Origin: Bacteroidota bacterium
Lineage (GTDB): Bacteria > Bacteroidota > Bacteroidia > SXHM01
Reading direction: 5' to 3'
Length of the DNA: 36,721 nt
Assembly (NCBI GenBank): GCA_947479755.1
Contig: CANKAM010000037.1
Coordinates: forward strand, 1-36,721
Shown here in pieces: positions 13,359 through 30,125 of the stretch (its first letter is position 1; every line of letters starts with the position of its first letter). The notes beneath the pieces are model-generated. The model worked only from the letters and a program-made list of their open reading frames with translations. It was not told where the DNA came from and did no database searches. Made by a program: the position numbers and the translations under genes.

Positions 13359-13362
13359 AATT

Positions 13363-13983: not shown

Positions 13984-13993
13984 AATAACCATC

Positions 13994-14197
13994 ATGGCAT
14001 TTAAAGAAAAATTAAATTTAAAAAATGGCGACTTCTGTAATGTTGTTGGTGGAACTCACAAGGGTAAATCGGGGACAGTGCAGGATTTAAAAACCAGTGA
14101 GACAGGAAATATTACAATCATGGTTCTTCAGCAGAACGGAGACAGATTTAAAACTTTGGGAAGGAATGTAGAAGTTCAGGACTCACATACTGCTTAG
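13994..14197 (+). CDS. Small KOW-motif-like protein, 67 aa
   Basis: Residues 10-60 (LKNGDFCNVVGGTHKGKSGTV, later GRNVEV) look like a KOW motif: GD.v.VvgG.hKGKsGtV. KOW folds bind nucleic acid or ribosomal partners. The protein is small and otherwise featureless. It follows the methyltransferase by 10 bases in the same direction and likely shares its mRNA. The role is unknown; KOW assignment is by motif only. Confidence 0.6.
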   Translation: MAFKEKLNLKNGDFCNVVGGTHKGKSGTVQDLKTSETGNITIMVLQQNGDRFKTLGRNVEVQDSHTA

Positions 14198-14238
14198 CAA
14201 GCAAGGGAATTGAAGAAATAACGAAGCAATTAACCCCC

Positions 14239-14268
14239 GTTCACTTCAAAAAAGCATACGCTCACTAC
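14239..14268 (+). promoter_or_regulatory. Candidate LytTR-binding direct repeats before lytTR gene
   Basis: Two 9-base half-sites, GTTCACTTC (14239-14247) and GCTCACTAC (14260-14268), are separated by 12 bases, a 21-base period or two helical turns. That is the usual geometry for LytTR-domain regulators. They lie 55 bases before the LytTR gene and upstream of its -7 box. The same pattern precedes the DUF2141 gene. Confidence 0.5.
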
Positions 14269-14297
14269 ATTTTGCCGCTGCAAATCACCACACCCCT

Positions 14298-14305
14298 TAC
14301 ATTTG
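14298..14305 (+). promoter_or_regulatory. -7 promoter box TACATTTG of the LytTR gene
   Basis: TACATTTG matches TAnnTTTG exactly, 17 bases before the ATG at 14323. A TTTG at 14271-14274 lies 23 bases upstream and may serve as the -33 element. Confidence 0.6.
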
Positions 14306-14322
14306 CAGTCAAAAGATAATAT

Positions 14323-15207
14323 ATGCTGCAATTGATAAATAAGCCGTTCCCTTTTTTCCTTAACGACAACAGGAAAAACATCATTCTAATTCTTACCACA
14401 AGCATCTTTGTAACGCTTTTTCTTACGCTCTACACCCCATTTGAAAACCCCAACAACACCCTAATCAACAACATTCAATGGGGTGTTTTCTGCTTCATTG
14501 CACTTTATGCAAACCTCATTCTCATTCCAAAACTATTTCCCGCCCTGTTTGAACTCACCCGTTGGACACTTCTCAAATACATTCTCTTTAATGCTTGGCT
14601 CTTTTTATCATTAGGCATTCTGTTTACCGTAATCAATTCCCTGCTTTTTAAGTGCGACATCAATTTCATATCTCTTTTCATAAAAACCCAACGCGAAGTA
14701 GTCCTCACAGGTTTAATCCCTTTAATAGTAATAACCATACTTGCCAAAAACAATTTACTCAAACAAAACCTTGCCGATGCCTTTGAAATCAATAAAAAGT
14801 TGAGTGAAATTCAAACCATCAAAGAGCAACCAAAACAGCTTGACCACAAAACAACCATTCAAACCGACACCAACGAAACATTCAGTTTAAACCTCACCGA
14901 CTTGGTTTACATTCTAGCAATGGATAACTATTCAGAAATCTACTGGAACGAAAACGGAAAGATTGCCAAGAAACTATTGAGAGTTACCTTAAAGAATGTA
15001 GAAACCCAACTCACCAACCAGTTCATTGTTCGTTGCCATCGCTCATACCTTATCAATGTTCAGGCAATAGAAAGCATCAGCGGAAACACCAACGGTTACA
15101 AACTGCAAATGAAAAACACCGATGTTGAAATTCCCGTTTCACGCGCAAAAGGAAAAGAGATTATCGCCCACATTCAGCAAATCCGCGACCTCTTAGACAT
15201 AATGTAA
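14323..15207 (+). CDS. Membrane-bound LytTR-family transcriptional regulator
   Basis: The first 145 residues contain four hydrophobic helices (starting near IILILTTSIFVTLFLTLY, then ANLILIPKLF and two more). A linker follows, then a LytTR DNA-binding domain from about residue 190: LVYILAMDNYSEIYW, LKNVETQLTNQFIVRCHRSYLINV, ending with IPVSRAKGKEII. So the sensor is probably the membrane part and the output is direct DNA binding, without a receiver domain. Repeats of the LytTR half-site type lie before this gene and before the DUF2141-acyltransferase pair just downstream, suggesting self-control and control of those genes. The signal sensed is unknown. Confidence 0.88.
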   Translation: MLQLINKPFPFFLNDNRKNIILILTTSIFVTLFLTLYTPFENPNNTLINNIQWGVFCFIALYANLILIPKLFPALFELTRWTLLKYILFNAWLFLSLGILFTVINSLLFKCDINFISLFIKTQREVVLTGLIPLIVITILAKNNLLKQNLADAFEINKKLSEIQTIKEQPKQLDHKTTIQTDTNETFSLNLTDLVYILAMDNYSEIYWNENGKIAKKLLRVTLKNVETQLTNQFIVRCHRSYLINVQAIESISGNTNGYKLQMKNTDVEIPVSRAKGKEIIAHIQQIRDLLDIM

Positions 15208-15213
15208 TAAGCC

Positions 15214-15263
15214 GTTCACCACGCGCTTACCCCACTCACTACATTTCCTATTCAGTTTACTAC
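15214..15263 (+). promoter_or_regulatory. Candidate LytTR-binding triple direct repeat before DUF2141 gene
   Basis: Three related 9-base half-sites occur in phase: GTTCACCAC (15214-15222), ACTCACTAC (15234-15242) and GTTTACTAC (15255-15263), with start-to-start steps of 20 and 21 bases. A -7-like CATCTTTG lies at 15294-15301, 39 bases before the ATG at 15341. This repeats the arrangement seen before the LytTR gene. Confidence 0.5.
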
Positions 15264-15340
15264 AACCTTCACCCCATCGGGGTTGCGGCACTTCATCTTT
15301 GTGCCCGATAATTCAATCATAAACAATTAAAACTCTCAAA

Positions 15341-15808
15341 ATGCAAACACAATCAATTTTCAAAACCGTTCTCGCAGTCGCAGTAATGCTGGTAATGTAT
15401 TCGTTCACTGCAAACAAATTTCAAACGCCCAACGAAATTTCCCTCAAGGTCAAAGTTTCAAGCGTAAAAACTGCCGAGGGAAACATCCACGTTTTGCTTT
15501 TCAATCAGGCAGTGGGCTATCCCACCAATCCTGCAAAAGCATTCAAGCACATCAAAGGCAAGGCAACAGCAGGAGAAGTAAACATCACCATTGATAAACT
15601 TCCTGCGGGAACGTATTCAATAGTTGCCTTTCACGACAAAAACGCAAACGAAGAATTTGACAAAAGTTGGTTTGGCTCGCCAAAAGAGGACTACGGTTTT
15701 TCAAACATACCAAGTGAGTTTTGCGGCACACCTTCATTTCAGCAAACCTCTTTTGTGGTAAACCCTGCAAGCAATTCAGTTACCGTTAAACTGATGAACC
15801 TGAACTGA
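15341..15808 (+). CDS. Exported DUF2141 protein
   Basis: A signal peptide (FKTVLAVAVMLVMYSFTA) is followed by a DUF2141 domain with its typical features: GNIHVLLFNQAVGYP, KLPAGTYSIVAFHDKNANEEFDKSWFG.P.E.YGFSN, and a beta-rich end. The family consists of small beta-sandwich proteins of the cell envelope whose function is not settled. Its last base overlaps the first base of the acyltransferase gene (TGATG), so the two form a coupled pair downstream of the candidate LytTR sites. Confidence 0.85.
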   Translation: MQTQSIFKTVLAVAVMLVMYSFTANKFQTPNEISLKVKVSSVKTAEGNIHVLLFNQAVGYPTNPAKAFKHIKGKATAGEVNITIDKLPAGTYSIVAFHDKNANEEFDKSWFGSPKEDYGFSNIPSEFCGTPSFQQTSFVVNPASNSVTVKLMNLN

Positions 15809-16953
15809 TGGAAACCCAACGTCTCTATTATATTGACCGTCTGCGTTTCCTTGCGGTAATCGTTCTCATCTTCTTTCATAGCGCACTCATTTTCGCAGCA
15901 CAATCCAATTTTCCAATCAAGAATAATGAATTGAGTGCGCTCATAGAAGAATTTGTTTTCTTCATTCACGGTTGGCGGTTGGGACTTCTCTTTTTCATTT
16001 CGGGAGTAGGAACAAGTTTTGCCCTGCAATTCCGAAATAATTCCGATTACATAAAAGAAAGGTTAAAGCGTTTGCTCATTCCGCTTCTCTTTGGAGTATT
16101 GGTAATCGTGCCGCCACAAATTTATTTTGAACGCCTCTCACAAGGTTTCGCGTTTGAATCATTCGGCAGTTTTTATCTGCAATCTTTTTCAACGGGATTT
16201 TATCCCTATGGAAACATCAGTTGGAATCACCTCTGGTTTGTTGCCTACCTGCTTATCTATTCCATTTTATCCGTTCCGCTTTTCACGTTAATAAAGAAAC
16301 ACAAAGCAGAAGTAATGGAAAAAATAATGAGCAAAGGCGGAGTATTTCTTTATGCAATTCCTTTAGCCATTGTTGTAGTCTTGCTCAAACCGCACTCACT
16401 CGGAGTTCAAAACATCGTAAACGACCTTGCAATGTTTTTCTTCTACTGGTTGGTGTTCTTGGCGGGCTTTGCCATCAACCAAAAAAAGTATTGGCAGTAT
16501 TTTGAAAACAAACTTATTCCGCTTTCAGTAGCTGTTGTCCTGCTCACCACATTATCCTATTTCATAAAATGGAATTTTCCGCAAATGGAAAAGGGAGATT
16601 TCGTTTACAACACGTTCAATTTTATCAAAGCCGCCAATTCATGGCTATGGATATTGACACTGTTAGCGTTGGCAAAAAAATACATGAACACTTCAGGTAA
16701 ATTTCTGTCGCTCTTAAATGAATCGGTTTATCCTGTTTACATTCTTCACCAAACTGTAATTATCTGTTTGGGCTATTTTGTAGTGCAACAAAACTGGAGC
16801 ATAGGCATAAAATTTTTCTTCATCACGTTTGCCACTATCATTATTTGTTGGCTGCTTTTCTTGCTCTTACGCTTAACCAAGTTCACAAGAGTATGTTTTG
16901 GGTTAGCCGAAAAGTCCTGCGCTGTAACTATCAAAAAACAAACTCTTTTGTAA
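15808..16953 (+). CDS. Membrane acyltransferase (acyltransferase 3/OpgC-like)
   Basis: About ten membrane helices run along 381 residues. The start RLYYIDRLRFLAVIVLIFFHSALIF has the Arg and His of acyltransferase-3 proteins, and YIKERLKRLLIPLLFGVLV is the usual second segment. Members move acyl groups onto glycans or other extracytoplasmic molecules; the substrate here is unknown. It is translationally coupled to the DUF2141 gene and possibly under LytTR control. Its stop at 16953 faces the end of the type III res gene across a 69-base gap that contains a short TAATC/GATTA inverted repeat. Confidence 0.87.
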   Translation: METQRLYYIDRLRFLAVIVLIFFHSALIFAAQSNFPIKNNELSALIEEFVFFIHGWRLGLLFFISGVGTSFALQFRNNSDYIKERLKRLLIPLLFGVLVIVPPQIYFERLSQGFAFESFGSFYLQSFSTGFYPYGNISWNHLWFVAYLLIYSILSVPLFTLIKKHKAEVMEKIMSKGGVFLYAIPLAIVVVLLKPHSLGVQNIVNDLAMFFFYWLVFLAGFAINQKKYWQYFENKLIPLSVAVVLLTTLSYFIKWNFPQMEKGDFVYNTFNFIKAANSWLWILTLLALAKKYMNTSGKFLSLLNESVYPVYILHQTVIICLGYFVVQQNWSIGIKFFFITFATIIICWLLFLLLRLTKFTRVCFGLAEKSCAVTIKKQTLL

Positions 16954-17022
16954 TCCTGTTAAGATTACAGGTAACTAATTAAAACCCTTTTACAGAAATA
17001 GTGGATATACTACAATATAAAA

Positions 17023-19326
17023 TTAGTTCTTAGCCGGATTAAATATGTCCCACCCCGTTACATCATAACCGTTTTCTATTTTCTCTTTAGAATATCTCCA
17101 GCTATCATCTTTATTGATGATTATACCACCAACAGTTACTTTTCCTGACTTGTTCCTTTCCGAAATATAATCATTCAAAGAATTATGCTTTGCCACCATA
17201 TCTTTATCTGATTCGGGTGTTTTGGTATCAAATAAACCAAGAGTTCCGCTATTAAATAAAATTACAAAGTCCACATAAAACAATGACTTCTCGCTTCTGC
17301 TGTTTATGTAAGGAACGGCAAAGTCAGCTTTACGTTCAGTTCCGTTTTTATACCACCAAACAATGTTTGACTTATTGCTTTCCAAGAACTGAATAAAGTC
17401 AAATTCTGTTTTGCTGTCAGATAAATAGCCGTTATTATTTCTCAGAAATAATGGGTCAAGAATGGCTTTATCAACTTCATGCTTTACAAAGTTATTATTG
17501 TAAATACGGAACTCAGGCACTTCCCAGCAAAGCTCTTTCACATCCGAAGTTTTAGTCTTTGCCTTTTCTTCCATCATTGCAGCGTAGAGTTCACGGGCTT
17601 TATTTATAAGGTCGGTAAACACTTGTTTGTTATGCAAAACAATTTTGTAAATCGTTTTATCTTCAAAATTGAAATACTCGGTCAGAAAGAGTTTAAGATG
17701 GTACTTTATCCTTTCCCAAGAAGCATCTTTCTGATATTCTCCGCAGCTATCAATGCAAAATTTATTGAACAACTTCTCTAACTGATATGCTGTTTTAGCA
17801 AAATGCGCTTTCTCCACTATCTCAATAGTCGATTCCTGCACTGCTTCAATTAATACATCAGAGGGAATTTCGATGTCAATGTCAGCTACATTTACTTCAA
17901 AGTAATTTTTCTCCTTTACTGTTTTCAAATTCAGCGAATAGAAAGGCTCTCCGTCTTTTGATTCCAAAGTAAGTCCCGGAAACATTTCAAGGGCAACTTC
18001 AAACAAGGTTTCTCTGAAATGCAATCCTATCCTGTTTCGTTGAAGAATACTCTCAATGTAATAGGACGGCAGATTAAGGTCGTTGTATATTGGTTTCCTT
18101 TCTGACTTATTAAAAGAGATATAGTCCATTTCATCCGGTTCAATCTTGATGTATTTCTGTTCAAGATTAGTGTAAACAAAACCGTAATTCAATGATTCAT
18201 CTGTATAATGCTTTTGTTCAGGCATCCGCAAAATCCGACCTAAAGTTTGAACTGTAAAACTTTCTTGCTGCAATTCTCGATATATCAGTAAAACGTGCGC
18301 TCTCGGACAATCCCAACCTAATGCAATGGCTTGTTTGAATAACAAAACATTAACAATACTGTCGTTTTCAGAAATTCCTTTCAGGTTTACTTTATTATCA
18401 CTGCCACTCATCCAAACTGCAAGTTGGTGATTGCTTTCTGTAATCTCCTGCGTAAAGAGGTAATCTTTTACAAGCTGCTTAATTTCGTTGTCCTTATCTG
18501 TAATTTTTGCCGACTCGGACGGAAGTTGAATAAGCAGTAAAGGGTTCATTTTACTGCCTTGCTTTTTATATTTTTCTGCTAACTCGTTTCTTTTTGCTAA
18601 AGCATATTTCAGCAATACAATATCTGCATTTTCCTCAGTCTGTTGCTTTGCATCCTTTATATGAGGGTTAAGATTGACACCCTTTTTTATCATTTGTTCT
18701 TTGACTACATCTTTCCTGTTTATGATAACATGGTAATCTGAAACAATTCTTGGGTCAGGAGTAGCAGTAACATCAATTTCAATTCTTGCATTTATTTTTG
18801 ACAGAACTACTTTAGCTTTCTCTCCTTTACTGGCGAACAAATGTGCTTCGTCAAGTATTAATACAATTTCGGTGTTGTCATTTTTTGTGTTTTGTATGTA
18901 AGTATAAAGTGTTTTATCTGTTTCACTTTCTCTCACATATAAATTGTCCTCGCTGCTGATAGACTGCCAATTCAGAAACAACAGTTCATTTGGGCTTAGT
19001 TTATCATCTGTAATATCCTCAAACTGCATGGTGCGAATATCCCTCGTTTCTTCAAAAAAATGTTTGAGGCTTTCGTAACTCTGTAAATGCAGCGTGTTAG
19101 GCGCAATCCAAATATAGGCTATATTGCGGTTGGGAATATCAAAGCGGTTAGGCAACTCATTCACAAGGTCGCGCAAAAGTATTGCCATCGTTACAGTTTT
19201 ACCCGAACCTGTGGGTGCTTTAAAAACGATTTTATTCCGAGTATTTACTTCGGGTAATAGAGAATAAAAATGCTTTTTCAGTAGTTTGAGAGCATCATCT
19301 CTGTATTCAAGGTTTTTTAACTGCAT
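17023..19326 (-). CDS. res: Type III restriction enzyme, Res subunit
   Basis: A superfamily 2 helicase comes first: Walker A APTGSGKT at residues 37-44, ILDEAH as motif II, VTATPDP as motif III, and LGRILRMPEQ as motif VI. Near the C-terminus, DFAVPYI...YVDFVILFNSGTLGLFDTK fits a PD-(D/E)xK nuclease core. With Mod, it cuts DNA carrying two inversely oriented unmethylated sites after ATP-driven travel. At 767 residues it is somewhat short for Res but has both ends. It starts nine bases after the Mod stop, so the two are co-transcribed, with Mod first. Confidence 0.92.
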   Translation of the reverse strand: MQLKNLEYRDDALKLLKKHFYSLLPEVNTRNKIVFKAPTGSGKTVTMAILLRDLVNELPNRFDIPNRNIAYIWIAPNTLHLQSYESLKHFFEETRDIRTMQFEDITDDKLSPNELLFLNWQSISSEDNLYVRESETDKTLYTYIQNTKNDNTEIVLILDEAHLFASKGEKAKVVLSKINARIEIDVTATPDPRIVSDYHVIINRKDVVKEQMIKKGVNLNPHIKDAKQQTEENADIVLLKYALAKRNELAEKYKKQGSKMNPLLLIQLPSESAKITDKDNEIKQLVKDYLFTQEITESNHQLAVWMSGSDNKVNLKGISENDSIVNVLLFKQAIALGWDCPRAHVLLIYRELQQESFTVQTLGRILRMPEQKHYTDESLNYGFVYTNLEQKYIKIEPDEMDYISFNKSERKPIYNDLNLPSYYIESILQRNRIGLHFRETLFEVALEMFPGLTLESKDGEPFYSLNLKTVKEKNYFEVNVADIDIEIPSDVLIEAVQESTIEIVEKAHFAKTAYQLEKLFNKFCIDSCGEYQKDASWERIKYHLKLFLTEYFNFEDKTIYKIVLHNKQVFTDLINKARELYAAMMEEKAKTKTSDVKELCWEVPEFRIYNNNFVKHEVDKAILDPLFLRNNNGYLSDSKTEFDFIQFLESNKSNIVWWYKNGTERKADFAVPYINSRSEKSLFYVDFVILFNSGTLGLFDTKTPESDKDMVAKHNSLNDYISERNKSGKVTVGGIIINKDDSWRYSKEKIENGYDVTGWDIFNPAKN

Positions 19327-19335
19327 AACTCTTTC

Positions 19336-21051
19336 TTAAACTTCTTCTGTAACCTCGTTTCTGATTTTCCTTTTCTTGGGAAGTATATTCTGAAATGCTT
19401 TGTAGATAGCATCAGGCAAAGCGCATAGTTGCACCCTTTCCCCTACTTCATAAAAATCTTCTGTATAGGGGTCTTGCCCCTCTGCAAAAACATAAACCTT
19501 AATGGTCAGTTCATGCGACATTTTCTTTATCAACTCAATAGCAGCAGGTATATGAATATCATCGTAAATGATAACTACTGCTATTCCTTTCTCCTGAAAA
19601 ATCTTGATTTGTTTTCCACCTTTTATTTCAGTGTAGCAGTTCTCTTTTATAGAAAGTAATTCCGTTGCGAATTCGGTTAATTCTCTTTTATTTTTCAGTG
19701 TTTTTTCTCTGCTAACAAAAGCCGTCTTGTAATAGCGAAAATTATTTCTCAGTAGTCCTTCAACTTTTTCTTCATTAGGTTTAGTATAACCTTCTATTAC
19801 TTTTTTATTTCTGAGATATGTTACTTCTTCACATATTTTATTTTCATTATTCGTCACCAAAATACATTGTCTTTTTCCAGCATCTTCCTCGTTTAAAATC
19901 ATAGTAGAATGAAGCGTTGTGCCACTACCAGCAAAAAAATCGAGGATTATTGATTCCTTTTGCGAGGATACTCCTATGATGTGTTTTATTAATTCGACTG
20001 GTTTGGGATATGAGAACAAAGTATTTCCTAATACTTCATTTATTGCATCTTTCCCTGACTCAGTTCGTCCAAAACGAGTTTCGTATAAAATACTTTTCGG
20101 AACAACTCCTAATGGTCTATAATATTTAGTATAAACTTTTCCATTCTTAAAAACCAATTTATCATACTCTTCTGTTGCTTTTTTCTTTCCCCATCGCCAG
20201 CATGATTTTTTACCTTTTATATTTCTTGGCAAGTATGAATTACCATCTGGGTCTTTAATTTCAAATACCAAAGAATCGCTATATCTAATAGATGATTTAT
20301 CAAGCGTAACTAAGCCATATTCTCCTTCTTCATCCTTAAAAGGATATAAAGCATCACTTAATTCATGTGCAGCATCAAGGTTTATTTTAAAATAATCCTT
20401 GTTTTTACCATAGCAGAAAACATATTCATGCTCAATTACAAAAAAAGTCGAGTCATTGCCACCTCCTTGTTTCTTTTTCCAAACCAGTTCAGCAATAAAA
20501 TTTGTTTCGCCAAAAATTTCATCACAAAGCAGCTTTAATTGTGCCTGTTCGTTATCATCTATTGAAATAAAAACAACTCCAGTATCTTTAAGTAAGCGTT
20601 TGGCAAGCTTCATTCGTTTACTCATAAATGATAGCCACATTGAATGCCGAAAAGGATTTTCTTTATCTACATCTCTTGCTTCATCATATCTACTGTCGTA
20701 ATAACGAAAATCCTTATTGCCTGTATTATAGGGAGGGTCAATGTAGATTACATCAATTTTATTTTCATGCGTAAAGCAAAGTGAAGTAAGCGCATGAAGG
20801 TTATCGCCCTCAATCAAAATATGATTTGGGGCTTGCGATTCGTCCTTTTCAGGTTGATAAATAATTGCTCTTTCTTTTACTTCAGATAATACCGGCAAGG
20901 CTTCATTCAACAGTTCTTCCGCTTCCTCCGGTTTATCTTCCCACACAAGCCCGTATCGCTTGCGGTTTATTAAATCTATAAGTTGTGATTTTTCTTCAAG
21001 GGTGAGCGCATCAAGCCCCTTGACTTTTGAAATAAGTTCGTTTTTATTCAT
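19336..21051 (-). CDS. mod: Type III restriction-modification methyltransferase, Mod subunit
   Basis: Motif IV DPPYNTG (residues 105-111 from the start used here) comes before motif I DFFAGSGTT, the order of beta-class adenine methyltransferases found in type III Mod. The stretch between holds the target-recognition region. I use the ATG at 21051 (MNKNELISKVKGLDALTLEEK) because family proteins begin this way; an in-frame ATG at 21090 would add 13 residues. It methylates the recognition site, protecting self DNA from Res. No simple-sequence repeat that could phase-vary it was seen. A long hairpin lies in its leader region. Confidence 0.92.
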   Translation of the reverse strand: MNKNELISKVKGLDALTLEEKSQLIDLINRKRYGLVWEDKPEEAEELLNEALPVLSEVKERAIIYQPEKDESQAPNHILIEGDNLHALTSLCFTHENKIDVIYIDPPYNTGNKDFRYYDSRYDEARDVDKENPFRHSMWLSFMSKRMKLAKRLLKDTGVVFISIDDNEQAQLKLLCDEIFGETNFIAELVWKKKQGGGNDSTFFVIEHEYVFCYGKNKDYFKINLDAAHELSDALYPFKDEEGEYGLVTLDKSSIRYSDSLVFEIKDPDGNSYLPRNIKGKKSCWRWGKKKATEEYDKLVFKNGKVYTKYYRPLGVVPKSILYETRFGRTESGKDAINEVLGNTLFSYPKPVELIKHIIGVSSQKESIILDFFAGSGTTLHSTMILNEEDAGKRQCILVTNNENKICEEVTYLRNKKVIEGYTKPNEEKVEGLLRNNFRYYKTAFVSREKTLKNKRELTEFATELLSIKENCYTEIKGGKQIKIFQEKGIAVVIIYDDIHIPAAIELIKKMSHELTIKVYVFAEGQDPYTEDFYEVGERVQLCALPDAIYKAFQNILPKKRKIRNEVTEEV

Positions 21052-21100
21052 TTTTTGTGTTGCCAGCCACAAAAAATCTGCGTGGGTCATTCTACCTACT

Positions 21101-21209
21101 CACTACCGGGTACTGGCATACCACAATGGAGATAAGCAAAAGCCCACGCATTGCGTGAGCGTTTCTGCTTTTTCTCTCCATTGTTTCAAACTTGCCAGTT
21201 TCGGTAGTG
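21101..21209. repeat. 109-base nested imperfect palindrome upstream of mod
   Basis: Four nested pairings line up: CACTACCG (21101) with CGGTAGTG (21202); ACTGGCA (21112) with TGCCAGT (21193); ACAATGGAGA (21123) with TCTCCATTGT (21175); AAGCA (21134) with TGCTT (21166). A tip of CACGC/GCGTG around ATT closes it. About 35 pairs in all. It could be a palindromic mobile repeat, or a structured 5' leader of the mod-res mRNA, since a promoter-like box lies upstream of it on the minus strand. Confidence 0.75.
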
Positions 21210-21286
21210 GAGAATTAGCTTAACGCAAATTCTTATATGTCTTATTTATATTTTTCTATCTGATTTCGTTTTTGATTAATGATGAG

Positions 21287-21294
21287 CAAATGTA
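21287..21294 (-). promoter_or_regulatory. Candidate -7 box TACATTTG for mod-res
   Basis: On the minus strand TACATTTG matches TAnnTTTG. Transcription would start near 21280 and run leftward through the long palindrome before mod, giving a leader of roughly 190-230 bases depending on the start used. No clear -33 box was found. Confidence 0.45.
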
Positions 21295-21509
21295 AATTAT
21301 TTATAGTAAAAGAAAACTGCTGCAATTTGATTTACCTTTTCTTTTAACAATCTTCAAGCGGTCCGTCCGTATCCTGTATATCCTAATTAGGCAAAGTTAA
21401 AAGAGTTCAATCGTAAGGTCAGTTCTACTATCAAGTTTTACATTACACTGACAAAATTGCAGTCAAATCCACGAGGCAGAGTTCTTGATGTAACAACAGC
21501 AAAAAGAAT

Positions 21510-22577
21510 ATGGCAAAAGTAGAAATCCCACCATACGCAGAATTGCAGTCATACGCTGATGTTGTAAAACATCTCAAGAACAGACAAAAACATTTGCTTT
21601 TAGGAAATGGTTTCAGTATGTCTTATGACAACAACATTTTTTCTTACAACGCACTCAGCAAATTTATTCATGGGATTAAAAATAAAGAACTTCAACAGCT
21701 ATTTGACATTGTAAATACAAACAACTTTGAATTGCTGATGCAGCAATTAGATAATGCAGCACAAATCGCAGAAGTATTTGGCGCAGACAAAAAAATTGTA
21801 AAGAAAATAAGAGAGGCAAGCGAAACATTGAAAACAAGTTTGATTGAAGCGATAAAAGAATTACACCCCGACCATGTTTTCACAATTCCTGAAAATAAAA
21901 GTCAGACATGTGCTAATTTTTTAAACTCATTTCTTTCACAAGGCGGGCAGGTCTTTACAACTAATTATGACTTGCTTCTTTACTGGGTTACAGAAAGGAA
22001 TCAACTTGAAAATAGAGTTGATGGATTCGGAAGGGATGTAGAGGAAACTGACGAATGGGTTAAACCCGAAGACATGAATGTTTCAGAGTTGAGATGGGGT
22101 AAGTATAAAGACATTCAGGTAATTCATTATTTGCATGGCGCATTACAAATTTTTGACACAGGAATTGATATAGTAAAAGAGCAATATACAAGCGAACATT
22201 GGCTTTTGGAAAATATCAAAGCACGAATGGAGAAAAAGGAATATCCGATTTTCGTTACAGCGGGAAGCGGAAAAGATAAGTTGACACACATCATGCACAA
22301 CAAGTATCTTTCGTTCTGTTACGAAACTCTAACTGCAATTGAAGGTTCATTAATTGTTTATGGTTTTGGCTTTGGAGATTATGATGACCACATCATTAAA
22401 GCAATCAACAAAGCAAGTAAGAAACGGAAAGACGAAAATGGAAATTGGCACATGTTGAACAGTGTTTACATTGGAGTTTATTCTGAAGAAGATTATAACC
22501 ACATCAAGCAAATTGAAAAGCAATTTAAAGTTCCATTGAGAGTATTTGACGCAAAAACAGTAAATCTTTGGGGTTAA
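21510..22577 (+). CDS. SIR2-like DUF4917 family protein, putative defence effector
   Basis: Residues 28-40 (HLLLGNGFSMSYD) look like the nucleotide-binding loop of SIR2-like proteins. Further SIR2-type signatures follow: TTNYDLLLYW near 149, YLHGAL near 206, and YGFGFGDYDDHII near 284. DUF4917 proteins are grouped with the SIR2-like fold, several members of which degrade NAD during phage defence. NAD hydrolysis here is inference. It lies divergent from a type III system and 10 bases before a HEPN-like gene, so the two are likely one operon. There are no membrane segments; length is normal for the family. Confidence 0.75.
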   Translation: MAKVEIPPYAELQSYADVVKHLKNRQKHLLLGNGFSMSYDNNIFSYNALSKFIHGIKNKELQQLFDIVNTNNFELLMQQLDNAAQIAEVFGADKKIVKKIREASETLKTSLIEAIKELHPDHVFTIPENKSQTCANFLNSFLSQGGQVFTTNYDLLLYWVTERNQLENRVDGFGRDVEETDEWVKPEDMNVSELRWGKYKDIQVIHYLHGALQIFDTGIDIVKEQYTSEHWLLENIKARMEKKEYPIFVTAGSGKDKLTHIMHNKYLSFCYETLTAIEGSLIVYGFGFGDYDDHIIKAINKASKKRKDENGNWHMLNSVYIGVYSEEDYNHIKQIEKQFKVPLRVFDAKTVNLWG

Positions 22578-22587
22578 GAAATTTTAA

Positions 22588-23034
22588 ATGGAAGATTTAT
22601 TTGAAAATACAACGCAGGAACTTTGGGCTGAAAGGCAAAATTGGGTTGAGAAGAAACTTGAAGAAGCAGAAATTGGAATGAGTTACTTCGTAAGCGACCA
22701 TGCAACAGCATTGTTTATGGATATGCAGAGAGCATATTGCACAGGCGCTTGGATTTCAGTAGTTGTGATGGCAGTTTCTGTAATTGATGCCCATTTAAGA
22801 GAAACCGAGGCAATGGATAATAATATAAAAACAGCAAAATTATTAGACACTTATTATGAAGGGCAAGATATTAACTGGTTGAGGAAACTTAGAAATAGCT
22901 ATGTTCATTTAAACCTTGAAAATCCTTCACTGGAAACAAACACATGGTTCAACAATCAAAAAGAGCTTGAAGCCAATGCCACAAAGGCAATACAAATGAC
23001 GATAAATGCACTTTTCCAAAACCCAGGAACTTGA
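22588..23034 (+). CDS. HEPN-like protein with RNxxxH motif, partner of DUF4917
   Basis: The 148-residue protein is almost all helix. It carries Arg102-Asn-Ser-Tyr-Val-His107 (LRNSYVHLN), which fits the R-x4-6-H catalytic motif of HEPN ribonucleases, placed as usual at the start of the last helices. Earlier helices (GAWISVVVMAVSVIDAHLRET) fit the hydrophobic core. Many HEPN proteins are toxins or defence RNases. The gene starts 10 bases after the DUF4917 stop. Which of the pair is the effector and which the regulator is unknown; the motif call rests on one short match plus helix pattern. Confidence 0.55.
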   Translation: MEDLFENTTQELWAERQNWVEKKLEEAEIGMSYFVSDHATALFMDMQRAYCTGAWISVVVMAVSVIDAHLRETEAMDNNIKTAKLLDTYYEGQDINWLRKLRNSYVHLNLENPSLETNTWFNNQKELEANATKAIQMTINALFQNPGT

Positions 23035-23099
23035 TTCTATATTGACAATCCACCGTTAATAGAATTCTGCATTCCACTTCAAACGAATTTGCAAAGCCC

Positions 23100-23107
23100 T
23101 ATCTTTG
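23100..23107 (+). promoter_or_regulatory. -7 promoter box TATCTTTG, probably giving a leaderless mRNA
   Basis: TATCTTTG matches TAnnTTTG and ends four bases before the ATG at 23112, the same spacing as the box at 13351. The DUF488 gene would therefore have its own promoter and an mRNA beginning at or beside the start codon. Confidence 0.6.
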
Positions 23108-23111
23108 CCTC

Positions 23112-23996
23112 ATGTTTTACAGGAGAAAAATAATACTGGCTTTACTACAATTATTTGAAGACAAGCTGGATAAAATCAGTTTGCAGAAATTGCTTTTCCT
23201 TTTTACGCAACGGCAAGCAAAAACCGAGTATGATTTTATTCCTTACCGCTTTGGCTGCTACTCCTACTCTGCTAATGCAGATATGACAGCAATGGTAACA
23301 AGGGGCTTTTTAGCAGAAGATGATAAGCATTTTGAGAAAAAAGATAAAACAGATTACTTCAAACAACTAAAACCTGACGACAAAAAGTTTTTGTTGGAAG
23401 TAAAAACCAATTACGGAAAAATGAGTGCTGACGGCTTGATGAAGCACACCTACCTGAACTACCCGTTTTATGCCATCAACAGTGTAAAAGCCGCAAGTAT
23501 TTTAACCAAACCCGAACTTGATAAAGTAAATGCAAGCAAACCCCAAAGCAGACAAACAATCCTGTTTACTATTGGCTACGAAGGAATTTCGTTGGAAGAA
23601 TACTTGGTTCGCCTACTAAAAAACGATGTAAAAGTGTTGGTAGATGTTCGCAACAACCCTTTAAGCATGAAATACGGTTTTAGTAAAAGTCAGTTGGTAA
23701 AATATTGTGGGAGCTTAGACATACAGTATATGCACTTCCCCGAAGTAGGGATACAATCAAACCAACGACAGGAATTGAACTCGCAAAATGATTATGATAA
23801 ACTGTTTACCTCTTACCGCACAGGCAACCTGACCAAAACAGTAAATACCCAAACTAAAATTCTTAACCTTTTAAAACAACACAAGCGCATTGCGCTAACT
23901 TGTTTTGAAGCTAACATTTGCCAGTGCCACCGTAAGCATTTAGCTGAAGCCATTGAAGCACTCCCTGACTTTGAGTATCAAGTAAAACATATTTAA
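23112..23996 (+). CDS. DUF488 protein with N-terminal helical/winged domain
   Basis: Residues from about 150 are DUF488: TIGYEGISLEEYLVRLLKNDV, VLVDVRNNPLS near 177-187, and the closing CFEANICQCHRKHLAEAI near 264 with the family's Cys-Glu and Cys-His-Arg signature. The first 130 residues (KISLQKLLFLFTQ, then YDFIPYRFGCYSYS) resemble the start of DUF4065/Panacea-type domains known from antitoxins, though this match is weak. DUF488 function is not established, but the proteins recur in defence and mobile regions. The next gene starts two bases after the stop, so the pair is one operon. Confidence 0.8.
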   Translation: MFYRRKIILALLQLFEDKLDKISLQKLLFLFTQRQAKTEYDFIPYRFGCYSYSANADMTAMVTRGFLAEDDKHFEKKDKTDYFKQLKPDDKKFLLEVKTNYGKMSADGLMKHTYLNYPFYAINSVKAASILTKPELDKVNASKPQSRQTILFTIGYEGISLEEYLVRLLKNDVKVLVDVRNNPLSMKYGFSKSQLVKYCGSLDIQYMHFPEVGIQSNQRQELNSQNDYDKLFTSYRTGNLTKTVNTQTKILNLLKQHKRIALTCFEANICQCHRKHLAEAIEALPDFEYQVKHI

Positions 23997-23998
23997 GA

Positions 23999-24808
23999 AT
24001 GGCATTGACCAAAGTTTTAATCGCAGTTAAAACCTATCCTACACTCTCAGCCAAGTATGATGAGTTGGTTTGCACTGCGGGTTTTCGTGAAGATGGAACA
24101 TGGATAAGGGTTTACCCGATACCATTTAGGAAATTAGATTATGCTTCACAATACAAAAAATACGACTGGATAGAATTGGACTTGGTTAAAAATACCAAAG
24201 ATTTCAGGCGTGAAAGTTACCGCCCAAAAACAATTGATACCGAAGTAACCGTAGTTGGTCATATAAAGCCATCAGACACTTGGAGCGAGCGAAAAGAATT
24301 TGCTTTAAAAAATGTTTACACAAATCTTACAAAACTTATTGCAGAAGCAAAAGACAAGAAAATCACTACATCATTAGCTGTTTTCAAACCTTCCGTCATC
24401 AAAAAGTTTTTAATTAAACCAGTTGAGAGAGAATGGAGCAAAGAGAAATTAGACCAGTTAAAGCAGATTAATTTGTTTGAGAAAAAAGGAGATGACTTTG
24501 AGATAGTGAGAAAAATCCCCTATAAGTTTTCCTACACGTTTGCTGATGATGAAGGAACGGAAAGCACCATGATGATTGAAGATTGGGAAATAGGTGCGTT
24601 GTATTGGACTATGGTGAAAAAGTATGAAGGGAATGAAGCAAAAGCCTGTGCTGATGTAGCAAAAAAATACTTTGATGACTTTGCAAAAACAAAAGACTTG
24701 TATTTCTTTCTCGGAACAACTTTTGTGAATCATTTTGTAGCAAGAAACCCCTTCATCATTATCGGAACATTTCACCCGAAAAAGGAAATACAAACCAGAC
24801 TGTTTTAA
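23999..24808 (+). CDS. Hypothetical partner of DUF488 protein, 269 aa
   Basis: I do not recognise a named domain. The start has a regular strand/turn pattern, KVLIAVKTYPTLSAKYDELV then CTAGF.EDGTWIRVYPIPFR, and the end is FFLGTT...NPFIIIGTFHPK. It is soluble, mixed alpha/beta and rich in Lys. Separation from the DUF488 gene is only two bases, so they form a two-gene unit with its own promoter (23100). A joint role in defence or nucleic-acid handling is inferred from the neighbours. Confidence 0.65.
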   Translation: MALTKVLIAVKTYPTLSAKYDELVCTAGFREDGTWIRVYPIPFRKLDYASQYKKYDWIELDLVKNTKDFRRESYRPKTIDTEVTVVGHIKPSDTWSERKEFALKNVYTNLTKLIAEAKDKKITTSLAVFKPSVIKKFLIKPVEREWSKEKLDQLKQINLFEKKGDDFEIVRKIPYKFSYTFADDEGTESTMMIEDWEIGALYWTMVKKYEGNEAKACADVAKKYFDDFAKTKDLYFFLGTTFVNHFVARNPFIIIGTFHPKKEIQTRLF

Positions 24809-24860
24809 TCAACAGGGTTTTATAGTTTTGGCAAGTTTACCATTCTATAAGTCAACGAAA

Positions 24861-26267
24861 TCAGGGAAATACATTAAACCGCATATCCCTTTCCTTAAAA
24901 CGGTTCTTTGTAGTTATAGCAACCCCGTTTTCAACTTTTACCGTAATATCTGCATCGTGAACAATTTCATTTGAGCCACGCATCTGCCCTTCTTTTGTGG
25001 ATTGGGAAATGGTGATAAACGCAGAGTTCGGAAATAGCTCCCGTAATTCCCTCAGTCGCATCGCGTCAATTTTCAGCGTATCCAAACTGTCAAGAAAGAT
25101 GAAATGAAACTTATTTTCGAGTTTATCTTTTATTTCCTCGTAGTTTTTATAGTTAGCAAAAAACAGAAAGGAACTGTCGGCATTGATGTATATTACTTTG
25201 TCGCGCAAGGTCTTTGAAAAACCTTCTTCTCCGCTGATAAAGACAACCATACCAAAGTTTTCTGCAAGATATTGTGCAAATTGTAAGCAGAAGGTAGATT
25301 TCCCCTCCCCCGGCTTTCCATGCACCGCTAAACTAAACTCAACAGAAGGCAGTCCGAAAAAATCATTCCATCTGTTCTGAAAGTTCAAACTTTTATAGTC
25401 CATTGATTTCAATTCTTTACTGCTGATAACCTTGTCGGTGGTTTTAATAGTTGGTGGTTTTACATCACCCAAAGTTTTGTTTTCGCTTTTATTAACATTA
25501 AGTGATTGAGTTTTAGATAAAGTAAACGGCTTGCCCCAGACATTTGAGAACTGAACAACAGGTTCCTTTATTTGCTTGGTTTCATATCTTGTAATACCTT
25601 TCAGATAAAGGGTAGCTTGTTCCAAAGCTTTTTTTGCTTCGGCAAGCTGGGTTTCCAATACAGTTCTCTTTTCATTTAATAGTGCAATGCTTTTTTGCTT
25701 TTGCTTTTCCCTGTCTTCTTCAAACAAGACGGCATCTGCAAATTTGCCTATACCAAAACCAACCAAACCGCTCAATAATGTTGTCATGGGGTCGCCCTTG
25801 CTTTGTTTGTTTCCTATGTATCCAGCTGCGGCAGTCGCAGTTATGGGGAGCAAACCCATGTTCCCGTTTTGCAGCCCCTTTAGTTGCTCGTTACAAACGT
25901 TTAAAGCATCCGACACACGTTTGACAAACGTGTGTTGCTGGTCTAATTTGGCTTTTGCTTGCTTGTAAGCCTCTGTTTCTACCTGAACATCTTTAAGAAC
26001 AAAATTTGGTTTTTCTGCTTTTTTATCTATTTCTGAAAGGGGTGAGAATATTGATTTTTTTACTGGTTCATCCCCTGCAACACCCCGTAGCGTTTGAGAT
26101 AAATTATTCTCTTGTTTTACTTCAGCAGACGGTTGTTTAGCCACTACCTTTGCCGGATTCTTTTCGCGCCAGTTATTCCATCGGCAGGTATCACCGCAGA
26201 ATACGGCATCACTTCGTTTAGGAATAAAGGTCTGTTGACATTGCTGGCATATTTTAGTTTTGTTCAT
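24861..26267 (-). CDS. Zinc-ribbon RecA-like ATPase of the mobile element
   Basis: Residues 7-28 hold four cysteines (C7, C10, C24, C28) in a zinc ribbon. A middle region has long helices (about 85-230) and a short Gly/Ala-rich hydrophobic stretch. The C-terminal part is a RecA/RadA/RepA-type ATPase: Walker A GKPGEGKST near 314-322, Walker B HFIFLDSLD, a sensor-like ITISQSTKEG, and a HDADI segment as in RadA. It may act in replication, recombination or transfer of the element. Ten-base repeats CAAACGTGTG lie just before its start, and a perfect palindrome of the same word lies in its coding region. Confidence 0.75.
   Translation of the reverse strand: MNKTKICQQCQQTFIPKRSDAVFCGDTCRWNNWREKNPAKVVAKQPSAEVKQENNLSQTLRGVAGDEPVKKSIFSPLSEIDKKAEKPNFVLKDVQVETEAYKQAKAKLDQQHTFVKRVSDALNVCNEQLKGLQNGNMGLLPITATAAAGYIGNKQSKGDPMTTLLSGLVGFGIGKFADAVLFEEDREKQKQKSIALLNEKRTVLETQLAEAKKALEQATLYLKGITRYETKQIKEPVVQFSNVWGKPFTLSKTQSLNVNKSENKTLGDVKPPTIKTTDKVISSKELKSMDYKSLNFQNRWNDFFGLPSVEFSLAVHGKPGEGKSTFCLQFAQYLAENFGMVVFISGEEGFSKTLRDKVIYINADSSFLFFANYKNYEEIKDKLENKFHFIFLDSLDTLKIDAMRLRELRELFPNSAFITISQSTKEGQMRGSNEIVHDADITVKVENGVAITTKNRFKERDMRFNVFP
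25913..25935. repeat. Perfect 23-base palindrome inside the ATPase gene
   Basis: ACACACGTTTG (25913-25923), a single central A, and CAAACGTGTGT (25925-25935) are perfect 11-base arms. The 10-base word CAAACGTGTG is the same as in the tandem repeat upstream of the gene, pointing to a protein-binding site rather than chance. Confidence 0.6.
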
Positions 26268-26288
26268 GGCTGGTGATTTTATTTATTA

Positions 26289-26308
26289 CAAACGTGTGCA
26301 AACGTGTT
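26289..26308. repeat. Tandem CAAACGTGT(G/T) repeats before the ATPase start
   Basis: CAAACGTGTG (26289-26298) and CAAACGTGTT (26299-26308) are directly adjacent, one helical turn apart, starting 21 bases before the start codon on the minus strand. Read on that strand each contains CACGTTTG, which also resembles the -7 promoter box. They may be an operator, an iteron-like origin site, or doubled promoter boxes. Confidence 0.55.
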
Positions 26309-26338
26309 ATTATGTGTAAAACGGATAATTAAGAGAAC

Positions 26339-26373
26339 AAAAAAGCGGTCAGGATAACCCTGACCGCTTTTTT
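26339..26373. terminator. Bidirectional terminator between small acidic protein and ATPase genes
   Basis: GCGGTCAGG (26345-26353) and CCTGACCGC (26359-26367) pair over a 5-base loop, extended by AAAAAA/TTTTTT. It lies after the stop of the minus-strand 67-aa gene and before the ATPase promoter region, separating the two transcripts. Confidence 0.88.
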
Positions 26374-26388
26374 GTTACCACTACCACC

Positions 26389-26592
26389 CTACTCTTCTTC
26401 CTCGTCCCGGAGGTTATCAAGAATTTCTTCGAGCTTGTCAACTTCACGACTTTCCTCTTTGTCGTATTCGACCTCGATGGTGATTTCATCTTCACTTACA
26501 CCAGTAATGGTGTTGTTAAGATTGCTGTTTACCAGTTCTTCGGCAAACGCTACCATCACTTCAGATGGCACATTGAATTCTGCTTTTCTCAT
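26389..26592 (-). CDS. Small acidic protein, 67 aa
   Basis: The C-terminal half is very acidic (many Glu/Asp, ending LRDEEEE), and the first half has a short helix-strand pattern (EVMVAFAEELVNSNL, then EITIEVEYDKEES). I do not recognise the family. It is between the HTH gene and a terminator in the element-maintenance module. Acidic proteins of this size may mimic DNA or bind basic partners, but nothing here proves that. Confidence 0.55.
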   Translation of the reverse strand: MRKAEFNVPSEVMVAFAEELVNSNLNNTITGVSEDEITIEVEYDKEESREVDKLEEILDNLRDEEEE

Positions 26593-26653
26593 TTTGTTTG
26601 ATTTTAATTGTTGTTTGTATATAATTGATTGATTGGTTTCTATTATTGGATGT

Positions 26654-26902
26654 TTATTTTTTAGCTGCCAGCATTTGTTCGATTTCGGATTTTTTGAAAA
26701 TATTTTTTCCGCCCATTTTACTTGGCTTTAACAGTTTTGAAATCGTGGTGGTTGATTTCACTTTATATCTTTCCTTTACCTCTTCTGTTGTGAGCCATTC
26801 ATCTTCGGCTTTTTTCATGGTTATCTGCTCACTCAATTTATTTAAGTGCGAAAGGATTTCTTCCTTCATTGAATTAAGGTCGTCTAATGTTGCGATGTTC
26901 AT
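26654..26902 (-). CDS. Excisionase-like helix-turn-helix protein, 82 aa
   Basis: Residues 38-75 (WLTTEEVKERYKVKSTTTISKLLKPSKMGGKNIFKKSEI, given here only as a pattern of W-LTT-EEV, T-IS-LL and a basic wing) match the MerR-like HTH_17/excisionase family widely found near integrases. The first 35 residues form a helix likely used for dimerisation. It may direct excision by the recombinase whose end is at position 147, or control the module. It lies within 1.5 kb of the right attachment site, where such genes often sit. Confidence 0.75.
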   Translation of the reverse strand: MNIATLDDLNSMKEEILSHLNKLSEQITMKKAEDEWLTTEEVKERYKVKSTTTISKLLKPSKMGGKNIFKKSEIEQMLAAKK

Positions 26903-27034
26903 AGTATGTGCTGATTTTGGGCACTAAACTACCGCCAATGAAGGGAAAGGACAATTTTTTAGAATTACTATTTGGTCAAATAGTAATAGTAATCTTAAAA
27001 ATAAGCGAGAAAAGGAGGCTTTGCAGTTAACTTA

Positions 27035-28177
27035 TCAGGAAGGAGAAAGCTTGTCTTTTATTTTATAAAAACTATCAGGGTATTGATAATTTTTTATTTC
27101 ATCTCCTGTTAATTTTAAGAATGGATTAGCCCCTTTAATATTTTCAAATTGCCTTCCATATACATCTTCAAAAAAATATTCAATTTTTGAATACAGGTTA
27201 TTAGTATGGCTTTTGGTAATAAAATCATCATCAGACAAAAGACCCAATTCTTTGAGAAAATATAAAAACCTAAATAATGATTTCAGATTTGATTTATTAG
27301 TCCTAATGTAAATATCAATCCATGCTATCCGTTGCTCTATTTCCTTAAATGGTAGTGGATTTGCACTGAATATCATACTAAATTCATGGATGCCTATCTC
27401 ATCTATCAACTTAACATCATCACTTTGCATTTCCTTACAAAGCGCCAGTCTTTGTGCGATAGTTCCCTTCCATTTAAAAGGTGTCACAAAAATTTTGCTG
27501 TCTTTTGCTTTTAGTGGAGGACTTGATATTGGAGGAGGACTTGATATTACAGTGTTTACAGACGAATTATTTTCAACAATCCAATCAGTTACTGTTTCAG
27601 AAGTATCGTTCTGAATTAATAATTTGTGCTGCCGCAGACATAACTCTAAGAACCGCTTAAACTTTTTAATATCACTACTAAAATTATTTGTAAAATGATA
27701 TTGGAGGTAGTCGTCAATTTCATGTAAATTATACTGCTTTAACTTTAAAGAGAAAAATAGAGGAAAATCATTATCTTTTGGAGTAAGTTGAATATCTGGG
27801 AAAAGTGAATACACCTTTCCTACTATAATTCCTGGCATGTAACCGTTACTTCTTATTTTCTCTGCTAAATTATCTTGGAAGTCAAGATATTCCTTCGTTT
27901 CAGATATAGTTTTGGGGTTAAATGATAAATATTTTTTAATTTGATTATCTGTGTAATGATTATTTTTTAAAAATTGTATTATTGGCACACCAAGATTCCG
28001 TTTAAATGATAGATTATGAACGATAGTGTAGATTTGTTGTTTTAGATGGGGGTTGTTACGATAACCTTCAAAAATATAAGGACCCTCGGCAACTAATATA
28101 TTGCCTACATCAATTTCAAAATCTGACGCCTTAATTATTTCGGGTAACTTATTCTTGGCTGGACTTTTTTTAGGCAT
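27035..28177 (-). CDS. Hypothetical protein of the element end, 380 aa
   Basis: I do not recognise this protein. It is soluble, rich in Lys, Asn, Phe and Tyr, and mostly helical. A Pro/Ser-rich linker near residues 213-223 (SSPPPISSPPL) divides it into two parts; the second begins with FKWKGTIAQRLALCKEM. Similar two-part helical proteins with a late segment of this kind occur in Bacteroidota mobile elements (RteC-like in outline), but I could not confirm that. The gene is clearly more AT-rich than its neighbours and is the last gene before the tRNA remnant, so it belongs to the element. Confidence 0.6.
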   Translation of the reverse strand: MPKKSPAKNKLPEIIKASDFEIDVGNILVAEGPYIFEGYRNNPHLKQQIYTIVHNLSFKRNLGVPIIQFLKNNHYTDNQIKKYLSFNPKTISETKEYLDFQDNLAEKIRSNGYMPGIIVGKVYSLFPDIQLTPKDNDFPLFFSLKLKQYNLHEIDDYLQYHFTNNFSSDIKKFKRFLELCLRQHKLLIQNDTSETVTDWIVENNSSVNTVISSPPPISSPPLKAKDSKIFVTPFKWKGTIAQRLALCKEMQSDDVKLIDEIGIHEFSMIFSANPLPFKEIEQRIAWIDIYIRTNKSNLKSLFRFLYFLKELGLLSDDDFITKSHTNNLYSKIEYFFEDVYGRQFENIKGANPFLKLTGDEIKNYQYPDSFYKIKDKLSPS

Positions 28178-28245
28178 AATTTTAATTATGTAACTTCAAA
28201 AGTAGTCACAATAATCAAGTTTCATTACATTTGCATCTGATTGCT

Positions 28246-28266
28246 CGGTTACCTATTCGGTTACCT
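28246..28266 (+). repeat. Direct repeat CGGTTACCT next to the attachment site
   Basis: CGGTTACCT occurs at 28246-28254 and again at 28258-28266, 12 bases apart. It lies 52 bases inside the tRNA remnant. Short direct repeats at such positions can be arm-type sites for a recombinase or excisionase; no direct evidence exists here. Confidence 0.4.
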
Positions 28267-28317
28267 GTGATTGCAAGAACAAGAAAACATGATGATATTC
28301 AGCCTGATATGAGAATT

Positions 28318-28338
28318 GTTCAAATCCCGCCACCCCGA
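28318..28338 (+). other. tRNA 3'-end remnant, probable attR of the integrated element
   Basis: The 21 bases read as tRNA positions G53 to A73: G-TTCAAAT-C loop, T-stem 3' strand CCCGC, acceptor 3' strand CACCCCG and discriminator A. The five bases before the loop (AATTG) cannot form the T-stem, and no D or anticodon arm is found upstream, so only the 3' end is present. The implied acceptor 5' strand CGGGGTG, with C1-G72, suggests tRNA-Pro. A strong terminator follows at once. This is the expected scar where an element entered a tRNA gene. Confidence 0.75.
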
Positions 28339-28344
28339 CTGGAT

Positions 28345-28386
28345 AAAAGTCCTGTCACGCCTAAGGCGAGACGGGACTTTTTGTTT
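28345..28386 (+). terminator. Terminator of the original tRNA gene
   Basis: AAGTCCTGTC (28347-28356) and GACGGGACTT (28370-28379) pair along ten positions with one G-T wobble. Inside, CGCC/GGCG closes over TAA, and a T-run TTTTTGTTTT follows. It sits nine bases after the tRNA remnant, where a tRNA terminator belongs. Confidence 0.88.
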
Positions 28387-28394
28387 TAATAAAA

Positions 28395-28445: not shown

Positions 28446-28811
28446 TTATTTTAAGTCTTCAAACTCTACGTCTGTGAATGAACCGCTTTTATCTGACGGC
28501 TTTTCAGAAGCAGTTGTTTCTTCTGTTTCAGGAGGCGCTGTATATGGTTGTTCTTTTTGTATAAAATCAAACACCTCTTTCAAACCTTCATTAAATTTAT
28601 CAAAATCTTCTTTGTACAGAAAGATTTTATGCTTCTGATAAGTGAACGTTCCGTCATCATTAAAGCGTTTTTTACTTTCGGTAATGGTAAGAAAATAGTC
28701 GTTTCCTTTGGTTGCTTTCACATCAAAGAAATACGTCCTTTTGCCTGCTCTTACTGACTTTGAGAAAATCTCTTCTTTCTTATGGCTATCAAATTCTTCC
28801 ATGGTACTCAT
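28446..28811 (-). CDS. PUR-family nucleic-acid-binding protein (DUF3276)
   Basis: The block KKEEIFSKSVRAGKRTYFFDVKATKGNDYFLTITESKK, here cited by its ends, is the PUR/DUF3276 signature, followed by HKIFLYKEDFDKFNEGL and an acidic Pro/Thr-rich tail. These small proteins are common in Bacteroidota and bind single-stranded DNA or RNA, and Borrelia BpuR is a relative. I use the ATG at 28811 (or 28802) instead of 28850, because a -7 box lies at 28827-28834, inside the longer frame. The gene is divergent from dnaN and is chromosomal backbone. Confidence 0.88.
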   Translation of the reverse strand: MSTMEEFDSHKKEEIFSKSVRAGKRTYFFDVKATKGNDYFLTITESKKRFNDDGTFTYQKHKIFLYKEDFDKFNEGLKEVFDFIQKEQPYTAPPETEETTASEKPSDKSGSFTDVEFEDLK

Positions 28812-28826
28812 TGGTTTAAGTTTGAG

Positions 28827-28834
28827 CAAAATTA
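28827..28834 (-). promoter_or_regulatory. Candidate -7 box TAATTTTG of the PUR-family gene
   Basis: On the minus strand TAATTTTG matches TAnnTTTG and lies 15 bases before the start at 28811. It supports that start over the upstream ATG at 28850. No good -33 box was seen. Confidence 0.45.
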
Positions 28835-28961
28835 AAAAAATAACAACCAAAACGTTTTTTTGTAATTAATTTTAACGCAGGCAATTTAAGTGCTGTAGAA
28901 AACTTGTAAAACTTGTTGAAAAATTAATGATTAATTTTTAATGCCAGCCTGAATGAAAATA

Positions 28962-29000: not shown

Positions 29001-30125
29001 ATGAAATTCATAGTATCAAGCTCGGTTCTGTTAAAAAATTTACAAAGCATAAGCGGTGTGCTTAACTCAAGCAACACGCTTCCCATTCTGGATAATTTTC
29101 TTTTTGAAATAAATAAAAACAGGTTGCAGATTTCAGGTTCTGACCTGGAAACAACTATGAGCACTTCACTTGAACTGGAGAAAGCCGACAAAGGTGGTTC
29201 GGTTGCTATTCCTGCAAAACTGTTGCTGGATATTTTAAAATCATTACCCGATCATCCTATTACTTTCAATATCAACGCTGAGACTTTTGGAATTGAAATA
29301 AGTTCTGACTACGGAAAATATAAACTGAGCGGACAAAACGGAAATGAGTTTCCTAAAAATCCAAAGATTGATGGCGCTTCAAAATTGTCAATTCCTGCGC
29401 ATGTGATTAACCGTGCAATTGGCAAAACTATTTTTGCTACAGGCAATGATGAATTGCGCCCCGTAATGTCTGGCGTATTTTTTCAGTTATCTGAAGATGC
29501 GTTAACCTTTGTTGCAACCGATGCACATAAATTAGTGCGCTACAAACGCACAGATGCAAAAGCACCAAAAGCAGCTTCGTTTATTCTGCCAAAGAAACCA
29601 TTGAACCTTTTGAAAAACACTCTGGCGCTACTTGTGTCGGATGTGGAAATTGAATACAACGAAACTAACGCATCATTCACCTTTGATAACACCAACCTTA
29701 TTTGCCGCTTGATTGAAGGTAAATATCCAAACTACGATGCGGTTATTCCCAAAAGCAATCCTAACAAACTTACGGTTGACCGCAGTTCATTGCTGAACTC
29801 TATCAAACGTGTTTCAATTTTCTCAAACAAAACAACGCATCAGGTACGATTGAAAATTTCAGGAAGCGAATTAAATCTTTCTGCCGAAGATCTTGACTTT
29901 GCAAACGAAGCAACGGAAAGACTTACCTGCCAGTTTACAGGCGAGGATATGGAAATTGGTTTCAACAGCAAGTTCCTGATTGAAATGCTTGCTAATCTGG
30001 AGAGTGAAAATGTGATGATTGAAATGTCGGCACCCAACCGCGCAGGAATTTTATTACCCGTTGAAAAGATTGAAGACGGTGAAGAAATTCTGATGCTGGT
30101 GATGCCGGTGATGCTGAATACCTAA
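29001..30125 (+). CDS. dnaN: DNA polymerase III beta subunit (sliding clamp)
   Basis: The 374-residue length and threefold repeated clamp architecture are standard. Recognisable parts include the start MKFIVSSSVLLKNLQ, LPILDNFLFEI, the middle-domain GNDELRPVMSGVFFQ with TDAHKLVRYKR, LIEGKYPNYDAVIP, and the end ILMLVMPVMLN. The clamp rings DNA and tethers polymerase and repair proteins. It has its own promoter box (28962), divergent from the PUR gene. Its last four bases overlap the end of the convergent gene at 30122. As a single-copy housekeeping gene it marks the chromosome side of the tRNA scar. Confidence 0.97.
   Translation: MKFIVSSSVLLKNLQSISGVLNSSNTLPILDNFLFEINKNRLQISGSDLETTMSTSLELEKADKGGSVAIPAKLLLDILKSLPDHPITFNINAETFGIEISSDYGKYKLSGQNGNEFPKNPKIDGASKLSIPAHVINRAIGKTIFATGNDELRPVMSGVFFQLSEDALTFVATDAHKLVRYKRTDAKAPKAASFILPKKPLNLLKNTLALLVSDVEIEYNETNASFTFDNTNLICRLIEGKYPNYDAVIPKSNPNKLTVDRSSLLNSIKRVSIFSNKTTHQVRLKISGSELNLSAEDLDFANEATERLTCQFTGEDMEIGFNSKFLIEMLANLESENVMIEMSAPNRAGILLPVEKIEDGEEILMLVMPVMLNT

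Follow-up and report, generated by a model that had tools for sequence, protein, structure and literature searches.

The window (i.e. the whole stretch of 36,721 nucleotides analysed here, being the entire contig C37 of genome G000) opens with the end of an integrase gene and continues through metal-efflux and defence genes up to a fragment of a tRNA gene, a terminator and backbone genes. In the list below, island B denotes the element to which everything left of the tRNA fragment is assigned:

1..28317, no strand: window part of island B (entire island about 29.9 kb)
1..147, +: C-terminal end of the island B tyrosine integrase (N-terminal 45 aa on contig C48:1-135(-))
2204..11153, +: metal cargo, i.e. 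MauE/HMA protein, methyltransferase, outer-membrane efflux protein, HlyD/CusB-type protein, heavy-metal-binding protein and CusA/CzcA RND pump
17023..21090, -: type III restriction-modification pair, cargo
21510..22577, +: DUF4917/SIR2-like candidate defence gene PDC-S21, cargo
23112..24808, +: DUF488 gene and partner, candidate defence pair PDC-M19A/B, cargo
24861..26267, -: AAA ATPase, right-end module of island B (86% identical in the G003 island)
26654..26902, -: HTH_17 protein (weak match)
27035..28177, -: protein of 380 aa without a known family (its counterpart at this end of the G003 island is 51% identical)
28245..28266, +: candidate arm-type integrase site TCGGTTACCTATTCGGTTACCT (repeats at both island B ends)
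28278..28317, +: conserved attP flank ACAAGAAAACATGATGATATTCAGCCTGATATGAGAAT (also in the G003 island)
28318..28342, +: scar read as attR of island B (tRNA-Pro(GGG) positions 53-73 plus CTGG)
28343..28390, +: original tRNA-Pro terminator, hairpin plus T-run (from folding, and a similar hairpin in congeners)
28446..28850, -: DUF3276 protein, backbone (same gene at empty sites)
29001..30125, +: dnaN, backbone

The tRNA fragment at window 28318-28338, GTTCAAATCCCGCCACCCCGA, occurs once in the window and matches tRNA-Pro(GGG) positions 53-73 exactly, while 100 shuffles gave 0 matches at three or fewer mismatches. Since it equals the 3' end of the intact tRNA-Pro(GGG) found on contig C48 (locus L004; C48:10470-10544, minus strand), its 21 nt run from G53 to the discriminator A73. 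Nothing else of the gene is present at 28318, as ARAGORN finds no tRNA gene in the window. Within the 112 contigs of the genome there are only three copies of GTTCAAATCCCGCCACCCCGA, namely in the intact tRNA-Pro(GGG), in the window scar and in a second, longer tRNA-Pro scar on C48 (about 577-624), which reaches from the anticodon arm to the CTG past the discriminator and holds its copy at C48:580-599. Behind the window scar, at 28346-28384, comes a strong hairpin with a T-run after it (the 64-nt stretch folds at -25.4 kcal/mol), and a similar hairpin stands at the same position, directly 3' of the intact tRNA-Pro, in four congeners. The first-pass annotation of the window had thus correctly recognised both the isolated 3' end of the tRNA and the terminator after it, and its guess that the source was probably a tRNA-Pro proved right. 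A megablast search of window 27.5-30.2 kb against plasmids gave no matches.

An empty tRNA-Pro site next to dnaN, which the same annotation had proposed to look for in relatives, is present in these four congeners (G001, G004, G005 and G006), where the order is DAGK - intact tRNA-Pro(GGG) - CTGGATAAAAGTCC - terminator hairpin - DUF3276 - dnaN. On C48 the DAGK gene flanks tRNA-Pro in the same way. As the window corresponds to the empty site from 28318 on, and C48 to the empty site up to the tRNA including DAGK, the two contigs are halves of one split locus. C48 breaks off within an integrase gene whose start adjoins the C48 scar, while the window opens with an integrase end, in agreement with the earlier assignment of a tyrosine recombinase ending at 147. 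In a fifth congener, G003, both pieces belong to one 421-aa gene, of which residues 1-45 are 100% identical to C48:1-135(-) and residues 372-416 are 82% identical to window 1-132. Judging from G003, about 978 bp of the integrase would be missing at the unassembled join between C48 and C37; this middle part was not found elsewhere in the G000 assembly. An integrase fragment on contig C105 was not assigned to the gene.

The locus as a whole then reads DAGK - tRNA-Pro - island A (9.9 kb) - scar 1 - island B (about 29.9 kb) - scar 2 (28318-28342) - original terminator - DUF3276 - dnaN. The intact tRNA had been expected left of the window, just before the integrase. A tRNA with the same 3' end does lie on that side, on C48, but what stands immediately before the integrase is a tRNA-Pro scar, with the 9.9-kb island A intervening and the tRNA about 10 kb further. 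In G003 the site is occupied by a related island, and the locus lies on one 919-kb contig, with tRNA-Pro(GGG) at ~623.2 kb, a scar at 597.1 kb and another at 556.3 kb adjoining dnaN (i.e. tRNA-Pro - 26-kb island - scar - 41-kb island - scar - dnaN).

The two ends of island B have a block of 25 bp in common, GTTCAAATCCCGCCACCCCGACTGG (window 28318-28342 and C48:600-576), and the exact crossover may therefore lie anywhere within 28318-28342. The earlier division into accessory DNA (1-28317) and backbone (28345 on) holds as a boundary, except that the core occupies 28318-28342 and backbone is certain from 28343 onward; this narrows the boundary to 25 bases and makes the window's metal-efflux and defence genes cargo of the island. 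The 22-bp repeat TCGGTTACCTATTCGGTTACCT has three exact copies genome-wide, one near the right end of island B and two near the left end, where a further copy with 3 mismatches joins them (all three of the left end lie in C48:352-478). The same repeats are found at both ends of the G003 island, and they may well be integrase arm sites, since they lie where such sites are expected. About 37 bp directly inside the right core are likewise common to the G003 island. At the left end (C48 505-580, minus) there is a strong nested hairpin (-31 kcal/mol) that is not followed by a T-run, and which recurs in G003, where an A-to-G change leaves the pairing intact.

By the Islander definition, a tDNA genomic island has an intact tDNA and, at the opposite end, a 3' fragment in the same orientation; this is found across two contigs in G000 and on one contig in G003. 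The integrase gene lies within the island near one end (its middle is missing in this assembly), and the empty site is seen in the four relatives named above. Relaxase, transfer or type IV secretion genes were not recognised among the island B proteins scanned with Pfam, nor were virion genes among the window proteins in Pfam scans. Relatives of integrase B and of the AAA protein were not found in viral contigs. A prophage or phage satellite was rejected on these grounds (i.e. the lack of virion genes and of viral-contig relatives). A scan of genome contigs returned only G003 itself (JAJVIC010000002.1, a Bacteroidia MAG) and one 20%-identical protein.

The explanation that we prefer, at a probability of roughly 0.96, is that 28318-28342 is the attR of a tyrosine-integrase island of about 29.9 kb, inserted in the 3' part of tRNA-Pro(GGG), and that island A later entered the restored tRNA. 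The 25-bp copy of the tRNA end carried by island B would have recombined with the chromosomal tRNA-Pro(GGG), leaving a whole tRNA on one side and the fragment with the old tRNA terminator on the other. Island A, with its own integrase and a 48-bp core, would subsequently have inserted into the restored tRNA and moved island B away from it. For the circular form of island B the predicted attP is GATATGAGAATT-core-TTTGTAACC, with tRNA-Pro-CTGGATAAAAG as the predicted re-formed attB. Island A is likely the later arrival: the restored tRNA is the entry point for any new island, and the tRNA-proximal position thus suggests the order of insertion.

Island A encodes an integrase (Arm, SAM and catalytic domains), a type IIG/ISP restriction-modification enzyme, an HTH_17 protein and a VapE-type helicase, together with a weak NikA/MbpA-like match. 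The insertions have separated the terminator at 28343..28390 from its tRNA. With island A in place, tRNA-Pro is followed by the hairpin and T-rich stretch of that island, AAAGGGTTTCC...GGAAACCCTTT (C48 10400-10470), so that the tRNA appears, from a reading of structure alone, to keep a terminator, the original one being ~40 kb away. This hairpin is conserved in the A-type island of G003 (near 623.2 kb), although the A-type integrases of G000 and G003 are only 59% identical. A narrowly worded literature search returned no published accounts of island-supplied tRNA terminators.

Of the alternatives, the one that survives best, though still improbable, accepts the attR but takes island B for an immobile relic that G000 and G003 both received by vertical descent from their common ancestor. 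Both genomes do carry an A-type and a B-type island, in the same order and at the same tRNA. However, the island core genes are far more alike than the backbone genes at fourfold-degenerate sites: between G000 and G003, 125/167 sites agree (75%) in the AAA and integrase codons, versus 124/265 (47%) in dnaN, DAGK and DUF3276 (P = 9e-9). It therefore seems that island B probably moved between the two species after their split, although codon bias could account for part of its higher synonymous identity. In addition, the cargo is mostly different between the two genomes, and the other four congeners have one intact tRNA without an island there. Island B may also be mobile at the present day.

Considerably less probable is a single island extending from the intact tRNA-Pro to 28318, in which the C48 scar would be an internal remnant. 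The first-pass annotation had described one element of >28 kb; that element and its right end stand, but the stacking of two islands was missed. The outer repeats are indeed common to both islands, and excising everything from the tRNA to 28318 might in principle take out both together (accretion). Yet the two parts have separate integrases, each adjoining a separate scar, the two genes diverging from scar 1, and the cores differ in length and position (48 bp beginning in the anticodon arm for island A, 25 bp beginning at the T-loop for island B), while the same two-part layout recurs in G003 with different cargo. That the fragment is merely a degraded tRNA pseudogene, left by deletion or duplication without any integrase, would fit the presence of only a 3' part but is hardly credible: the tRNA is broken at the T-loop, the same terminator and the same genes follow as at the empty site of four congeners, and at the opposite end lies an integrase with a scar to match.

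Riemerella anatipestifer belongs to the same phylum as G000. Its 10K genomic island resembles the stacked islands described here in being an integrase island beside a tRNA with direct repeats, and its integration and excision have been shown, but it is a single island at tRNA-Arg with a 53-bp repeat (PMC6764341). In Dehalococcoides, too, several islands stand in tandem downstream of a single RNA gene, ssrA, with direct repeats of the end of that gene as their boundaries, and are hypothesised to be mobilizable rather than conjugative; they differ in their tmRNA target and in phylum (PMC3146451). Closest are the tDNA islands of Islander, with a tyrosine integrase, the restored tDNA at one end and the displaced 3' fragment at the other (PMC4383910). 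Its 3919 islands include 125 tandems, in which every member comes with an integrase and a fragment of its own, and both the T-stem (J) and anticodon (A) crossover classes, to which islands B and A respectively correspond, are tabulated (PMC4383910). There is no difference in principle from Islander, the new elements being the host genus, the cargo and the combination of a J-class and an A-class island on one tRNA. The tandem arrangement is ordinary and well supported, of a well-known kind already catalogued, and it offers a clean natural series for tRNA-island stacking, with four empty and two double-occupied sites.

In the comparison with G003, island B is alike at its ends (the integrase fragments, the AAA protein and the 380-aa protein), while most cargo differs. 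The closest cargo in common is an AraC-type regulator and the MauE/HMA gene, and some efflux genes are distant relatives. A tentative generalisation, which we consider possible but rather doubtful, is that of a genus-specific chassis with fixed ends (integrase and repeats on the left; AAA, HTH and 380-aa proteins on the right) that swaps metal-resistance and phage-defence cargo at one tRNA-Pro site and is regularly overlaid by an anticodon-class island whose own terminator keeps the tRNA terminated. The HTH_17 protein of the right end is likely an excisionase or regulator. Weak partial matches to the 380-aa protein occur in 11/395 genomes of the class outside the genus. The AAA protein is not island-defining, as its matches extend across the class and many of them are to the shared (RadA-like) ATPase domain.

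Inside the island, genes for a SiaC-family phosphoprotein and a DUF6272 protein are adjacent (window 11850-13057), and the candidate defence cargo PDC-S21 and PDC-M19A/B adjoins the type III restriction system. Elsewhere in the genome, contig C87 (4.6-8.4 kb) has a further integrase in the vicinity of a second AAA ATPase copy (44% identical to that of the island); this is probably one more related island.
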